This document shows, piece after piece, positions 52,274-58,893 of a stretch of 64,000 nucleotides of DNA (its first letter is position 1; each line of letters begins with the position of its first letter). Made by a program: the position numbers and the translations under genes. Below the pieces are notes generated by a model. That model saw only the letters and a program-made list of their open reading frames with translations, made no database searches and was not told the origin of the DNA. This stretch comes from Ewingella americana ATCC 33852. Lineage in GTDB: Bacteria; Pseudomonadota; Gammaproteobacteria; Enterobacterales; Enterobacteriaceae. The stretch is from the NCBI RefSeq assembly GCF_000735345.1, contig NZ_JMPJ01000065.1, positions 186,001 to 250,000 on the forward strand, read 5' to 3'.

Positions 52274-54436
52274 TTATTGCGCTATCACATACCCCATGAT
52301 GCGCTTCCACCCAACCGGTTTCTTCTCGATGTAAACACCCTGTAACTCAGGGGAGAAGCCCGGCAGCTGGTTGATTCCCTCTTCCAGCGCCATAAAGTAG
52401 CGTTGCACCGCCCCGCCCCAGATTTCGCCGGGAACGACGCACAGCACGCCCGGCGGATACGGCAGCGCACCTTCGGCGGCAATGCGCCCTTCGGCTTGGC
52501 CGATTGGCACCAGCTCGACGTTGTCGCGGATAAATTCGCTGTGGGCGTCTTGCGCGTTCATCACCACTTTCGGGAAGCTCGCCTCGCGGAACATCTCTTT
52601 TTGCAGCTCTTTGACGTCAAAACTGACGTACAGATTGTGCATTTCCTGACACAGCTGACGGATGGTGTAGTCGCGATAACGCTCTTCATTCTTGCGATAC
52701 ACCGTCGGCAGCACCTCACTCAGCAAGGCGTCCTCTTCGATATAACGCTCAAAGCGCGCGATCTCATCCACCAGCAGCTGCATCTTGGCCGGGGTTTCCG
52801 CCGGAGTCAGCAAGAACAAAATCGAGTTGAGGTCGCACTTCTCAGGAACAATACCGTTCTCACGCAGATAGTTAGCCAAAATAGTGGCCGGAATACCGAA
52901 CTCGGTATATTTACCACTGGCGGCATCAATGCCCGGTGTGGTCAGCAGCAGTTTGCAAGGATCGACGAAGTACTGCTTCTCGGCGTAGCCTTCAAATGCA
53001 TGCCAGTTCTCCCCCGGCACGAAGTCAAAGAAACGCACGTCATTGGCCATTTTCTCGGTTTCATGATGCTGCCAAGGCTTGCCGTCAATCACCGGCGGCA
53101 CGAACGGCAGGATCATTGAACACTGGTCGAGCAGCATTTTGCGCGTCTCAATCCCCAGCTTCACGCACTCCATCCACATATGCTTGCCACTGCCGCCAGC
53201 ATGGATACGCGCGTTTACGTCCAGCGCGGCAAACAGTGGATAAAACGGGCTGGTCGAGGCGTGCATCATAAACGCATTGTTCAGTTTTTTATGGCTGCAA
53301 TGGCGCTTCTGGCCTTTGATATGGTTATCTTTTTTATGGATTTGCGAGGTCTGCGAGAAGCCAGCCTGCTGTTTGTGGACCGACTGGGTCACGATGATGC
53401 CCGGATCGTTTTCGTTCAACTCCAGCAGCAGCGGCGAGCACTGCTCCATCATCGGAATGAACTGCTCGTAGCCGACCCACGCCGAGTCAAACAGGATGTA
53501 ATCGCAAAGATGGCCGATTTTATCCACCACCTGACGGGCGTTGTAAATCGTGCCGTCGTAAGTGCCCAACTGAATGATCGCCAGACGGAACGGGCGCTTC
53601 TCATTGGCGCGCTGCGGAGACACCGCTTGAATCTGTTTGCGCAGATAAGCTTCGTCGAAACAGGCCGCGTCGATTCCGCCAATAAAGCCAAACGGGTTAC
53701 GCGCGGTTTCCAGATAAACCGGCGTTGCCCCGGCCTGCAACAGCGCGCCGTGGTGGTTGGACTTATGGTTGTTGCGGTCGAACAGTACTAAATCATCGCG
53801 AGTCAGCAAGGCATTGGTGACCACTTTATTGGCCGCCGAGGTGCCGTTGAGCACAAAATAGGTTTTATCCGCGCTGAACACCTTGGCAGCGTATTTCTGC
53901 GCATCTTTGGCCGAACCTTCGTGGATCAGCAGGTCGCCCAGCTTCACATCCGCATTACACATGTCGGAGCGGAAGATGTTGGCGCCGAAGAAGTCATAGA
54001 ACTGGCGGCCCGCCGGGTGGCGACGGAAAAACTCACCGCCCTGATGCCCTGGGCAGGCAAAGGTGGCGTTTTCCATCTCAACATACTTCTTTAAGGTATC
54101 GAAGAACGGCGGGAATAAAGCTTCTTCATAAGCCTGCGCGGCGGCTTCAATCTGCGCCGCATAGAACGCCTGATTGGCATCCGACAGCGTCACTACGCCT
54201 TTGAGCATCAACAAATAGTCAGGAGAAACCTGCTCTGCCCCCTGCACTGCAACAAATGCCGGGATACCAAAACCCAGCGAGTTTATCTCCGACAGCTTGC
54301 CGCTGTTCAAATCACTCACGGAGATAATAATGGCCGCCACGTCGGCATAATCAGCACGGCGCAGATCCACCACCGCGCGGTGCGACTCAATGTAAGGGGC
54401 CACGGAGGCACTTGCTGCAAGTTTTAAAAGTTTCAT
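52274..54436 (-). CDS. speC: Constitutive ornithine decarboxylase SpeC
   Basis: PLP fold-type I decarboxylase turning ornithine into putrescine. 720 residues (711 in E. coli). The N-terminal wing domain spans about 1-110. The PLP lysine is in VTQSVHKQQAGFSQTSQIHK, and the catalytic centre includes FVLNGTSAANKVV and ILFDSAWVGYEQF. The C-terminus LPYPPGVLCVVPGEIWGG is family-typical. Its position next to tRNA-Phe recalls E. coli (speC near pheV). It gives a second putrescine route beside speA-speB. GAGAG lies before the ATG. Confidence 0.96.
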   Translation of the reverse strand: MKLLKLAASASVAPYIESHRAVVDLRRADYADVAAIIISVSDLNSGKLSEINSLGFGIPAFVAVQGAEQVSPDYLLMLKGVVTLSDANQAFYAAQIEAAAQAYEEALFPPFFDTLKKYVEMENATFACPGHQGGEFFRRHPAGRQFYDFFGANIFRSDMCNADVKLGDLLIHEGSAKDAQKYAAKVFSADKTYFVLNGTSAANKVVTNALLTRDDLVLFDRNNHKSNHHGALLQAGATPVYLETARNPFGFIGGIDAACFDEAYLRKQIQAVSPQRANEKRPFRLAIIQLGTYDGTIYNARQVVDKIGHLCDYILFDSAWVGYEQFIPMMEQCSPLLLELNENDPGIIVTQSVHKQQAGFSQTSQIHKKDNHIKGQKRHCSHKKLNNAFMMHASTSPFYPLFAALDVNARIHAGGSGKHMWMECVKLGIETRKMLLDQCSMILPFVPPVIDGKPWQHHETEKMANDVRFFDFVPGENWHAFEGYAEKQYFVDPCKLLLTTPGIDAASGKYTEFGIPATILANYLRENGIVPEKCDLNSILFLLTPAETPAKMQLLVDEIARFERYIEEDALLSEVLPTVYRKNEERYRDYTIRQLCQEMHNLYVSFDVKELQKEMFREASFPKVVMNAQDAHSEFIRDNVELVPIGQAEGRIAAEGALPYPPGVLCVVPGEIWGGAVQRYFMALEEGINQLPGFSPELQGVYIEKKPVGWKRIMGYVIAQ

Positions 54437-55121: not shown

Positions 55122-55197
55122 GCCCGGATAGCTCAGTCGGTAGAGCAGGGGATTGAAAATCCCCGTGTCCTTGGTTCGATTCCGAGTCCGGGCACCA
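55122..55197 (+). tRNA. pheV: tRNA-Phe (GAA)
   Basis: 76-nt cloverleaf with the acceptor stem GCCCGGA/TCCGGGC, encoded 3' CCA, D-loop AGCTCAGTCGGTAGAGC, and anticodon stem-loop GGGGATTGAAAATCCCC with anticodon GAA. The T-loop is GGTTCGATTCC. Followed by a short intrinsic terminator (ATCAGCTTAACAGCTGGTTTTTT, about 55210-55232). Which E. coli copy (pheU or pheV) it corresponds to is suggested by the speC neighbour but not proven. tRNA-Phe genes are common integration sites. Confidence 0.98.
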
Positions 55198-55560
55198 CTA
55201 TTTAAAGAAATCAGCTTAACAGCTGGTTTTTTGCTATCTGGCGTTGGGACTCTCCATCGAACTGCGTTCGATTATTCGTCTCATCCTGAGACTCACCCCT
55301 TCGGGGCCAGCGCAAGCGCTGTTCATCGGTGCTGACGCACCGCGGTCCGAGTCCGGGCACCATCTTTAAAGAAACCAGCTTAATAGCTGGTTTTTTGCTT
55401 TCTAGCGTTTGGACTCTTCATCGAACTGCGTTCGATTATTCGTCTCATCCTGAGACTCACCCCTTCGGGGCCAGCGCAAGCGCTGTTCATCGGTGCTTAA
55501 GCACCGCTGTCCGAGTCCGAGCACCATATTTAGAGAAACCAGCCTACGGGCTGGTTTTTT
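55181..55560 (+). repeat. Tandem ~165-bp repeats carrying the tRNA-Phe 3' end
   Basis: The last 17 nt of the tRNA (TCCGAGTCCGGGCACCA, 55181-55197) recur at 55346-55362 and, with one change, at 55510-55526; the periods are 165 and 164 bp. After each comes a terminator-like hairpin (ACCAGCT/AGCTGGT plus T run). The two full units then carry stems around ATCGAACTGCGTTCGAT, CCCCTTCGGGG, AGCGCAAGCGCT and CGGTGC/GCACCG. Two complete units and a partial third are present. The layout parallels the tyrT repeats of E. coli (178 bp, tRNA 3' end included, source of rtT RNA). Short ORFs through these repeats look incidental. Confidence 0.88.
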
Positions 55561-56162: not shown

Positions 56163-58403
56163 GTGCGTGACATCCTGTTTGCAGGGAAGAAACGCTTCAG
56201 ACTTATCGGTGGTGGCAGCTACCTGAGAATTGAAGCAAGAAAAATAGGATATGGCACCACAGGGAACTATGTACGTAAAGTGAAGCGCACGTATCTTGGA
56301 GCATCAGCCTCGATGTCCGTAGATTTGCCTTCTCACGATAAAGTGGCAGACCTGCCTCCAGCTCTGAACACGTTTTCATTTGCATATGCAAGGAATGCAC
56401 TGATGCACATATCACCGCCCATTCTGTTTCCCCGCCAGAATAATGAAGAGTATGCCGCATGGGTCATGCGGACGATGCCTGCCGACCCGCGCCGTGGTTT
56501 TCCGGTAAATGGGGTGGAGTCATGGCACGGTGGCATCCATATTCCCCATACCGATACCGGCGCTTTAACCAATCCTCTGAGAGCCGTTGCTGATGGCGTG
56601 GTGATTTATGCCAGCTATCCTGCGCTCACGGAGAAACGTGATACAAAACCGCTGAATTACGATGGCGCAACGGATAACGGATGTGTACTTATTCGCCATG
56701 AAATACTCATTGGTGAAGAGCCTGTAGCGTGCGTATTTTACTCGCTGACCATGCACATGAAGCAGGTACGTCCCGAAATTCAGGGTAAAGCGGGAGTGCG
56801 CGTCAGACGGGGCCAGATCATTGGCACCACCGGCATGGTCAGCGGGCGCAACGCATACCATTTTCAGATGTGCTGCTCTTCCGACATGCTGAAGATGTTG
56901 TGCGGACGCGACCACGGTCACCTTGACGTCAGCGAGCCGGGCAGAGTAAAACCGGCTTATGGCAATCGCTATTTCTTTCTCCCTGAAGGTACCGCTATTT
57001 ATGAAGGGGGCACACCCTATGGGCTGTCAGCCTATCCTTGCTGCGTCACCACAGAAGCACTCTATGTTATCCATGAAGGCGCTAAAACCCGGACTCTGAT
57101 TAAGGTCAGTGATGATTACCAGCCTGTCGGGGAAACGGCCATCCCGGTGGACTATATCTGCGAACCCACACCCACAGTCGGCGGACATAAAACCTACAGT
57201 GAGTGGGTACGTGTGGCCTACCCAGGCGATGAGGGATGGGTGGATGTCTCCTCTCCGACGGTGAATGCCTGGACCGATGCCGATTTCCCTGACTGGGCGG
57301 GTTGGGCGCTTATTGATGATGACGCAACTCCAGACGGTCAGTGCAATTCCGCCACGGTGAAGAAAGCACGGGAAAAGCAGGATGTCGACTTTACCCGATT
57401 TATCTGTAAATTCCCTCTTGAGTGGGATTTTGCGTCGTTCGATACCCGTTTTTCATGGCTGAAAGCACCGAATGACTCGCAGCCTGAACCCATGAGTGAG
57501 AAGAGCTACAGCGAGCTGAAGGAGCATGCGAAGGCGCTGTCGTTTTTCGATAAACTCCCTGTGGGCACTCAGAATGAGCTAGCGGGTCAGGTCTGGCATT
57601 GTGACCCGCGTGGTCTGATGATCCAGCTACAGAAAGCAGAGCGTCGACTCATCTTTAGTACAAAAAATATGATGAATGATTTTACTGCTGACGATATGCG
57701 TTACGGGGATTTATCCAAAGAGCAAATACTGGCGCAGGGGAAGCTGAACCGGGTAAACATATTTGGTGAAGAATTTAAGATCAACCTGTTTAATTTTAAC
57801 AAAACAGTGGATGAGCACTTCGCCAGCATGGACAGCATGGCTTTCTGGACTGCAAGTGGTGAGTTCGCCCCCCTTATCCAGATCATGCTTGAAAAATTCA
57901 GAAAAAATGAAGGCGGCGTATTACGTCACGAATTACTGAATAAGGCGTTCTTGGAACATAAAACGACAAAAGAATGCGTTAATACCATTAAAAAAATCAT
58001 GCAACAAATATTTTATGGCAATGAATGCAATGTCTTTAAAGGTAATGACTTTATTAAAATCACATTAGACATTGCAGAGCAAGTTACTCTTCCAAAATTC
58101 ACAGATTTTGATTGGTTCAATGGTTTGGGCATAACTATCCATGATACATACTCAACGAAGATATATCTTGATGATTTCGAAATTATGGAAACTGAAACTG
58201 TTAGTTCTCGTCGTAAAAAATTCAAGGCACGGCTGACCTTTCAGATCCAGGATCATTTCGGATTGGATATTGCTGATTTAAATGGGAAAATATTCGAACT
58301 CTCTCCTTGGTTTTGCTCTTGGTTTATTCTTCAGCGATACCGAAGTTATGGCTTTAAGCCTTTCATCAATGAATCAAAATTTAGTTTTTGGATAGAAGGA
58401 TAA
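56163..58403 (+). CDS. VgrG-derived effector with M23-like and DUF3289-like domains
   Basis: A 746-codon frame from a GTG after the last stop of the vgrG remnant; GTG lacks a Shine-Dalgarno and ATG at 56313 is an alternative. Residues 1-50 are still VgrG tail (IGGGSYLRIEARKIGYGT). Residues about 80-245 resemble a LytM/M23 endopeptidase: WHGGIHIPHTD (His122), ADGVVIYA, NGCVLIRHE, LTMHMKQV and RNAYHFQM. One usual metal ligand looks altered (His at 126 where Asp is normal), so activity is uncertain. The end (about 655-746) matches DUF3289: ITIHDTYSTKIYLDDFEI, QDHFGLDIADL and WFILQRYRSYGFKPFI. A murein-targeting antibacterial toxin is the likely role. Confidence 0.65.
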   Translation: MRDILFAGKKRFRLIGGGSYLRIEARKIGYGTTGNYVRKVKRTYLGASASMSVDLPSHDKVADLPPALNTFSFAYARNALMHISPPILFPRQNNEEYAAWVMRTMPADPRRGFPVNGVESWHGGIHIPHTDTGALTNPLRAVADGVVIYASYPALTEKRDTKPLNYDGATDNGCVLIRHEILIGEEPVACVFYSLTMHMKQVRPEIQGKAGVRVRRGQIIGTTGMVSGRNAYHFQMCCSSDMLKMLCGRDHGHLDVSEPGRVKPAYGNRYFFLPEGTAIYEGGTPYGLSAYPCCVTTEALYVIHEGAKTRTLIKVSDDYQPVGETAIPVDYICEPTPTVGGHKTYSEWVRVAYPGDEGWVDVSSPTVNAWTDADFPDWAGWALIDDDATPDGQCNSATVKKAREKQDVDFTRFICKFPLEWDFASFDTRFSWLKAPNDSQPEPMSEKSYSELKEHAKALSFFDKLPVGTQNELAGQVWHCDPRGLMIQLQKAERRLIFSTKNMMNDFTADDMRYGDLSKEQILAQGKLNRVNIFGEEFKINLFNFNKTVDEHFASMDSMAFWTASGEFAPLIQIMLEKFRKNEGGVLRHELLNKAFLEHKTTKECVNTIKKIMQQIFYGNECNVFKGNDFIKITLDIAEQVTLPKFTDFDWFNGLGITIHDTYSTKIYLDDFEIMETETVSSRRKKFKARLTFQIQDHFGLDIADLNGKIFELSPWFCSWFILQRYRSYGFKPFINESKFSFWIEG

Positions 58404-58407
58404 CGGA

Positions 58408-58893
58408 ATGAGAATTTTTAAAGCAACCATCATGGCATTGATTTTTGGCGCATTTTATATGTCTTATACGGTCTATATGCGCCAAGGATATATAAATAAA
58501 ATCTATCAAACGACAGAGCACAGTGAAATTTGGAGTAAGGATTGCAAGTCCACTGTTATTTTAGTTGATAATGTTCCACTCTCTCATTATTCACAAAAAA
58601 AATTCTGGCAAAAAAATAGCAAAGAAATTATCGAAAAATGGAATCCCTTTACAGATGAGTGTGATGATGTTCTTTTTGTTAAAAACAATATTGGATATAT
58701 CAAACATAGCGGAGATGTTAAGTATTGGATAGCCGATGATGAAATCTGTTTGAATGGCTCAATCGGAGGATGTATTTCATGGGACGATCGTTTATTTTAT
58801 GTTGGGCTGAAGGAATCTACTTTAGGTAGTGATATCACAGGAGAGGTTAACGGTAAACCAATCTACATTAGGTTCATTGACCAAGGAAATTAA
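58408..58893 (+). CDS. DUF943-like protein, putative immunity protein
   Basis: A 161-residue protein with one N-terminal hydrophobic segment (about 5-23) and an exported C-terminal part. It has the DUF943 pattern TVILVDNVPLSHYSQKKFWQKN followed by a paired-Cys region (ICLNGSIGGCISW). It starts 4 bp after the effector stop, the usual place for an immunity gene, and has the location (periplasm) expected if the toxin attacks the cell wall. AT-rich, unlike core genes. Function inferred from place and topology only. Confidence 0.65.
   Translation: MRIFKATIMALIFGAFYMSYTVYMRQGYINKIYQTTEHSEIWSKDCKSTVILVDNVPLSHYSQKKFWQKNSKEIIEKWNPFTDECDDVLFVKNNIGYIKHSGDVKYWIADDEICLNGSIGGCISWDDRLFYVGLKESTLGSDITGEVNGKPIYIRFIDQGN

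Follow-up and report, generated by a model that had tools for sequence, protein, structure and literature searches.

Repeats that lie directly behind tRNA or rRNA genes have been called tRNA-linked repeats (TLRs). In E. coli K-12, 22 of them are known at ten loci, and their 3' ends are identical to 18–19 bp of the upstream gene (PMC8144298). TLRs were first described in 1978, and no function was known for them before the work on those of the rrn operons (PMC8144298). The latter, rrA, rrB and rrF, are located between the dual rrn terminators; their RNAs undergo processing and bind to Hfq and CsrA, and the repeated 5S end of RrB has been suggested as an RNase E site (PMC8144298). Few terminators are used on plasmids as often as the rrnB T1–T2 segment (PMC8144298). 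A starvation phenotype of rtT, the repeat RNA of tyrT, was withdrawn by its authors according to PMC8144298 but is still cited in PMC4986893. RtT-type RNAs gave Northern signals in a Pasteurellaceae species (PMC4986893), and a tandem GA motif was reported in RtT (PMC7657543). In the literature covered, no reason was found why TLRs carry the last 18–19 nt of their tRNA.

An array of repeats behind tRNA-Phe

The window analyzed here is a stretch of 64,000 nt from Ewingella americana ATCC 33852. It contains a tRNA-Phe(GAA) gene at 55122–55197 on the + strand, identified by both ARAGORN and Rfam. An Orn/Lys/Arg decarboxylase gene is located upstream (52274–54436, − strand), as speC is upstream of pheV in E. 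coli K-12 with yqgH and yqgA in between, and by this gene neighborhood the locus is pheV-like. A first-pass annotation had reported that 17 nt of the tRNA 3' end occur three times, with periods of 165 and 164 bp. The sequence TCCGAGTCCGGGCACCA was indeed found at 55181–55197, 55346–55362 (identical) and 55510–55526 (one mismatch). It comprises 16 nt of the tRNA and a T that is counted here as the last base of the core described below. The array consists of two tandem units of 164 nt, which are 93% identical, and a hairpin with a T-tract follows each of the three copies of the tRNA 3' end. As this repeat recurs at tRNA-Phe in many genera, it is not a product of chance. The second tRNA-Phe of the E. 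americana genome has one such unit.

Each unit is composed of tail, terminator, spacer, inverted T-arm/acceptor copy, T-loop remnant and four-hairpin core, followed by the next tail. Behind the true tRNA end, a terminator-like hairpin with T-tract spans 55199–55232. In unit 1, part of the tRNA T-arm and acceptor 3' end is present as an inverted copy (GGACTC-NNC-ATCGAAC, 55247–55262). It is followed by GTTCGATT (55266–55273), which is left over from the T-loop of tRNA-Phe and directly borders the core on its left. Next come the core itself, about 73 nt on the strand of the tRNA and probably a mobile element (55274–55346), the first copy of the 16-nt tRNA-Phe 3' end, CCGAGTCCGGGCACCA (55347–55362), and its hairpin with T-tract (55363–55396). 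Unit 2 has the inverted copy at 55411–55426, GTTCGATT at 55430–55437, the core at 55438–55510, the second tail copy with one mismatch at 55511–55526, and the last hairpin with T-tract at 55527–55560, all of these features being on the + strand. Cores were delimited by the covariance model R1 (see below) and the other elements by sequence, with additional support from folding for the first inverted copy and from RNAfold for the first two hairpin/T-tracts. The inverted copy, which is present in both units, had been overlooked at first pass, as had the identity of the core. A pairing of its GGACTC with GAGTCC in the following tail copy is possible, and the module fold has the inverted arm paired to that tail. 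On either strand, unit 1 folded better than each of 200 shuffles (z = −5.0 for + and −4.8 for −).

None of the three + strand hairpin/T-tract sites was reported by the terminator scanner, whose one listing inside the array is on the − strand (55225–55212), and a promoter scan of the array listed none. RNAfold and a purpose-made parser both find the + strand sites; we think that the scanner missed them because the T run is paired with their A-rich 5' arm. Beyond the array, the window contains a 746-aa frame at 56163–58403 on the + strand with a DUF3289 match and a sub-threshold M23 peptidase match, followed at 58408–58893 by a sub-threshold DUF943 match. We guess that these two are perhaps an effector-type gene pair.

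The array belongs to the TLRs, for which tRNA-Phe is a further site. It lies directly 3' of a tRNA gene and has two units, the range for TLRs being one to five copies per locus (definition from PMC8144298). Its 3' end identity covers 16–17 nt, complete in copy 1 and with one mismatch in copy 2, compared with 18–19 bp in E. coli. The likeness to the tyrT/rtT array that had been seen at first pass is thus one between two TLRs. The Rfam model RtT (RF00391) did not match the Phe array on either strand, at the gathering threshold or at E up to 10; at this E value, Rfam yielded only sub-threshold matches besides the tRNA. RtT matches were present in 17 of 40 genomes including that of E. americana, where they occur at other tRNAs. 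Twenty stretches with RtT matches were read together with E. coli tyrT. Two of them (L203 and L204) have no tRNA, and the remaining ones lie behind tRNA-Tyr, Pro, Lys or Ser and carry copies of that tRNA's own 3' end. In E. coli, the 3' end annotated for RttR lies at 1287066 and coincides exactly with the CCA of the first tail copy (1287244, the end of tyrV, minus 178). Literature searches with terms other than tRNA-Phe or pheV found no array at tRNA-Phe; the present array is accordingly a TLR at a host gene for which no description was found.

A pattern for the 5' arm of the unit retrieved 85 stretches from the genome collection, and 80 of these 85 loci were analyzed. The unit was observed at tRNA-Phe in many enterobacterial genera: Serratia, Yersinia, Rahnella, Pectobacterium, Lonsdalea, Klebsiella, Raoultella, Kosakonia, Enterobacter, Leclercia, Citrobacter, Kluyvera, Buttiauxella, Mangrovibacter, Phytobacter, Franconibacter, Erwinia and others. 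A tRNA was located within 1.5 kb upstream in 59 of the 80 loci and was tRNA-Phe in every one of the 59, with at least one tail copy in 47 and none in 12. The other 21 loci either have a contig end close to their start or follow a partial tRNA-Phe end (judged by eye). Up to four marker copies per locus occur elsewhere. In one locus (L014 of G025), a changed tRNA tail (GAGTTC) is accompanied by the matching change in both tail copy and inverted arm. With at most three candidates scored per genome, 118 genomes in a family sample of 295, E. americana included, matched the module, a part of them with dispersed cores only. In E. coli, 3 of 5426 genomes matched, over 18–20% of the query (tail and terminator), and K-12 pheV and pheU have no tail copies. 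As a separate observation, the tail copy of one of the 47 loci (L109, Lonsdalea quercina ATCC 29281) has become a run of GAGTCC hexanucleotides with overlapping matches every 6 nt.

The four-hairpin core, its strand and its insertion sites

A sequence profile of the Phe core (nhmmer) was too weak for comparisons with other arrays, leaving 32 of 45 RtT-type units without a score. The best match was sense in six units and antisense in seven, and only three matches exceeded 4 bits, all of them antisense; one search gave E values of 2.7e-5 and 0.003 for these matches. Therefore, a covariance model, R1, was needed, which was built from 23 Phe cores and three dispersed copies. R1 matched rrB between the terminators of E. 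coli rrnB (E = 3e-10), that is, within the T1–T2 segment, as well as the Tyr, Lys, Pro and Ser arrays and the Arg array of genome G022. Core copies were present in 21 of 40 genomes, E. americana included. In the latter genome, BLAST of the core returned the three Phe units only. At least 48 core matches were counted in genome G008, for which 122 of 857 candidates were scored.

For the strand count, 14 duplicates were dropped from 264 R1 rows, leaving 250; the row sets had been chosen variously, by core hits, as Phe loci, mostly by RtT matches and in one case by tRNA only. In this count, for which R1 had been trained on Phe cores and genomes were not randomly drawn, the core was on the tRNA strand in 90 of 90 rows at tRNA-Phe. 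Of the 80 rows at other stable RNA genes, 77 had it opposite to the gene and three on the gene's own strand. The 77 rows belong to Tyr (21), Lys (19), Pro (11), Ser (10), 5S (9), Arg (4) and one each of Glu, Ala and Gln, where Gln-CTG is an ERIC-borne copy and not a TLR, and Ala is an interrupted tRNA-Glu copy. The three exceptions are far or weak, i.e. Pro at 744 nt with 11.9 bits, Gln at 526 nt and Ala at 287 nt. A further 80 rows had no stable RNA gene within 800 nt.

Among 69 dispersed cores, 16 had an ERIC-type end within 220 nt. We take the repeats that host them to be ERIC-type enterobacterial repeats, going by their sequence ends; they are hosts of the insertion and not the core itself. 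Dispersed cores of G016, G019 and G022 (L225–L229, L234–L237, L249–L252) were also seen within larger repeated palindromic stretches of other families, and in one stretch of G019 without a tRNA or 5S gene nearby (L253), three cores lie head to tail, 76–78 nt apart.

When the core is taken out of the Phe unit, its flanks join as GTTCGATT/CCGAG, which is the uninterrupted T-arm of tRNA-Phe. Taken out of other arrays, it leaves GGTTCG/AATCC. The T-arm remnants agree with the host tRNA (GGTTYG, C or T) in 13 of 13 Tyr, 6 of 6 Pro(TGG), 4 of 5 Pro(CGG), 7 of 7 Ser and 2 of 2 Lys type A arrays, but in only 3 of 12 of Lys type B. L295 stems from a different family of the order, and its tail follows the sequence of its own tRNA. 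A tRNA-Glu copy of G049 (L287) is identical over 55 nt to its intact neighbor and interrupted in the T-loop by the core. After the core it continues with AATCCCCGTG and then diverges, the acceptor 3' end being lost; the intact neighboring tRNA-Glu has a TLR of its own.

Empty sites were searched for 49 of the 90 rows chosen by core hits, comparing their joined 45-nt flanks with the fetched loci. Uninterrupted relatives, which are other copies of the repeat and not the same place in a sister strain, were found for 21 of these 49 dispersed copies. Eight of the 21 (L264–L271, in ERIC-type repeats) are exact at ATT^C, with empty sites GTGATT^CGGG, CGGGATT^C and CTCATT^CACCC and filled sites GTGATT-core-CGGGTGA, CGGGATT-core-C and CTCATT-core-CACCCG. 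At these eight, the insertion is clean and without target duplication, and the TLR flanks agree with them. Of the others, L241 is exact at ACT^C, L276 is located at CTT^C, and 11 differ by bases or gaps at the junction (L224, L225, L233, L234, L242, L243, L254, L256, L260, L261 and L293). Considering 45 distinct dispersed contexts, TT was present on the left in 27, C on the right in 37, and both in 22.

Read on the core's own strand, the target is ATT^C in the eight resolved copies and in tRNA-Phe (GATT^CCG, + strand). In tRNAs with TTCGAATC it is GGATT^CGAACC on the − strand, and the T-loops of Tyr, Lys, Pro, Ser and Arg tRNAs carry ATT^C on this strand. In 5S it is CAGTT^CC on the − strand, i.e. 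GTT^C with one G of difference (read by eye). Since tRNA-Phe has TTCGATTC in place of TTCGAATC, and with it ATT^C on the + strand, the strand of the core is flipped. Insertion would also predict the tail of 16 nt found here instead of 18–19 nt, because the insertion site is shifted.

In three genomes, the same target delimits the host genes. When a tail copy is defined as 16 nt with at most two mismatches within 420 nt of a tRNA gene, 32 of the 111 tRNAs whose T-loop contains ATT^C on either strand have such copies behind them, compared with none of the 101 others. For E. americana the counts are 8 of 31 against 0 of 28 (p = 0.0036), for G016 11 of 40 against 0 of 36 (p = 0.0004), and for G022 13 of 40 against 0 of 37 (p = 6.5e-5), these p-values being too small because tandem tRNA genes are not independent. 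G016 and G022 had been selected for carrying arrays. After merging identical genes, 59, 76 and 77 genes were counted in E. americana, G016 and G022, from 59, 83 and 81 matches of the tRNA model. Tail copies occurred at Lys, Pro, Tyr, Phe, Ser and Arg tRNAs; in G022, none of the six genes of the + strand type, Phe included, had one.

Origin of the array and alternative explanations

We consider it probable that the array is a TLR which arose at tRNA-Phe when a mobile core of ~73 nt entered a spare copy of the tRNA 3' region at ATT^C, with subsequent tandem duplication. A small palindromic mobile element with four hairpins would have entered the T-loop of a redundant tRNA 3' copy, leaving downstream the 16-nt end and its terminator, and upstream the T-loop remnant and the inverted arm. 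The 5' part of the spare copy would have been lost, and the unit may have been duplicated through recombination, probably between identical tails. The empty and filled sites described above lie elsewhere, and no such pair was seen for the founding insertion at tRNA-Phe. Expression would depend on readthrough past leaky terminators downstream of the tRNA, and the tail copy would be the place of 3' processing, as for E. coli RttR and RrB. Judged from the sequence, processed RNAs from the Phe array are possible; we think that the cellular role of such RNA is at most minor.

Alternatively, each unit could yield a regulatory or structural RNA of ~165 nt ending in CCA, its hairpins being selected as RNA in the manner of rtT or RrB. 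In favor of this are the presence of module or core in 118 of the 295 genomes, the transcription, processing and Hfq and CsrA binding of RrB (PMC8144298), the Northern signals for Pasteurellaceae RtTs (PMC4986893) and the covariation of the Phe cores. The compensated stem changes and loop differences that the first-pass annotation had pointed out are present, and covariation across genera, set beforehand as support, was detected: 72 distinct rows gave 147 double-change cells and a score of 0.279. Shuffles gave 0.091, none of the 500 scoring as high, and the best slide 0.088; in one of the five measures, the number of further pair types, the observed value was attained in 26 of the 500 shuffles. 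However, the dispersed cores, which have no common transcription context, covary more, with 261 double-change cells in 58 rows and a score of 0.533 (shuffles 0.153, best slide 0.100), both alignments having been fitted to the structure of the model and leaning towards it. The covariation is real, but its signal therefore belongs to the element and does not show selection on the Phe RNA, contrary to what had been suggested at first pass.

Base-pair types also speak against selection on RNA structure. Parsing of 80 Phe core hairpins gave 1749 pairs, namely 1733 Watson-Crick, nine A-C, one G-U and six other, whereas terminators of the same units have 60 G-U and one A-C of 748, a part of the G-U being located where the stem enters the T-tract. 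Hairpins P4–P6 of 43 of the 45 RtT-type units have one G-U and eight A-C of 588. The model-fitted Phe alignment has 5 G-U against 11 A-C in helices 1–3 (1063 cells) and 20 against 18 in helix 4, which is poorly registered, and the dispersed cores have 19 against 15. Used as a strand test, G-U against A-C revealed no G-U preference, yet it did not indicate the other strand. A fold-based count favoring the other strand (140 G-U against 50) was dropped, as the folds were mispaired, and a first parse of the hairpins (one G-U against 20 A-C) was replaced by the later one (one against nine). Moreover, both strands of the unit fold about equally, and the core is upside-down relative to other TLRs. 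The Phe core is antisense to that of RrB and contains on average 0.075 GGA motifs (80 cores) compared with four in the rrB core, so that a CsrA sponge or RrB-type CsrA-binding sRNA, which would need several GGA motifs, was rejected. Together with the withdrawal of the rtT starvation phenotype (according to PMC8144298), this makes a selected RNA unlikely in our estimation. Perfect hairpins can be generated and preserved by template switching during DNA replication (PMC8794818), a mechanism that would fit those in the core; we infer that they are kept mainly at the DNA level. Pairing of the inverted arm is not claimed to be universal: the inverted-arm matrix is own-maximal in five of eight array types (Tyr, Lys B, Ser A, Ser B and Phe), not so in Pro(TGG), Pro(CGG) and Lys A, and L295 has no pairing arm (by eye).

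Duplicates of tail and terminator might instead be kept as a fail-safe array that ends transcription and gives clean 3' processing. Consistent with this, a hairpin and T-tract stand behind each tail copy, the terminator stems remain paired by means of G-U, in the way that an RNA would, and the RNase E site suggested for RrB lies in a repeated 5S end (PMC8144298). This explanation leaves the common core, its flip and the restriction to ATT^C tRNAs unaccounted for, and E. coli K-12 pheV and pheU do without tail copies; we regard it as improbable. Tails could also be attachment sites multiplied by integrases, i.e. the footprint of genomic islands, and islands at tRNA-Phe do displace arrays (L050, L065, L105, L123, L125 and L145; by eye). 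By eye, partial tRNA-Phe ends in front of displaced arrays were judged to be left by an integrated island. In L105, L111, L123, L125, L145 and L150, these ends are much longer than 16 nt, so that the islands used the tRNA and not the tail copies, and no integrase explains the core, which makes such an origin highly improbable. In L065 and L050 (G006), an integrase-like frame was seen by eye directly behind tRNA-Phe, with the displaced Phe unit ~12.6 kb further.

Comparison with known elements and repeats

Insertion of a mobile core, which we favor, can be extended to other repeats. We lean slightly towards the view that all TLRs, including tyrT/rtT and the rrB-type sRNAs, are copies of stable RNA genes broken by one mobile hairpin element with (A/G)TT^C as its target and a fixed orientation of insertion. 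If true, the target would explain why ~16–19 nt of the RNA end are kept, which RNA genes serve as hosts, and why the core is upside-down at tRNA-Phe. A single rule would then cover TLR origin, tail length, host genes and orientation, and tRNA repeats, rrn terminator sRNAs and ERIC-borne inserts would be linked to one element. As a caution, palindromic mobile DNA can yield strong covariation without selection on an RNA.

IS200/IS605-type elements transpose as single strands, with a hairpin element, an orientation fixed by a short target, and no target duplication. The core resembles them in being a hairpin element whose orientation appears to be fixed by the target, without target duplication at resolved sites. 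As a difference, no match to the Y1 transposase (PF01797) was found in the genomes of E. americana, G008, G019 or G021. PF01797 genes and cores occur together in G006, G016, G022, G049 and G050, the cores being numerous in G049 and G050.

Like the rrA, rrB and rrF loci of E. coli, the Phe array has its core between successive terminators, where it would be reached by readthrough, and rrB is itself matched by R1. In contrast to the Phe array, their host is 5S rRNA and the core orientation is reversed, and CsrA-type GGA motifs are nearly absent from Phe cores. Among the closest known repeats are also the TLRs of E. coli including tyrT/rtT (RttR, RF00391), which share with the Phe array the position directly behind a tRNA, tandem units ending in a copy of the tRNA 3' end, the inverted arm and the hairpin core recognized by R1. 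The Phe array differs from tyrT/rtT in its host tRNA, in its tail of 16 instead of 18–19 nt, in lying below detection by RF00391, and in carrying the core on the opposite strand.
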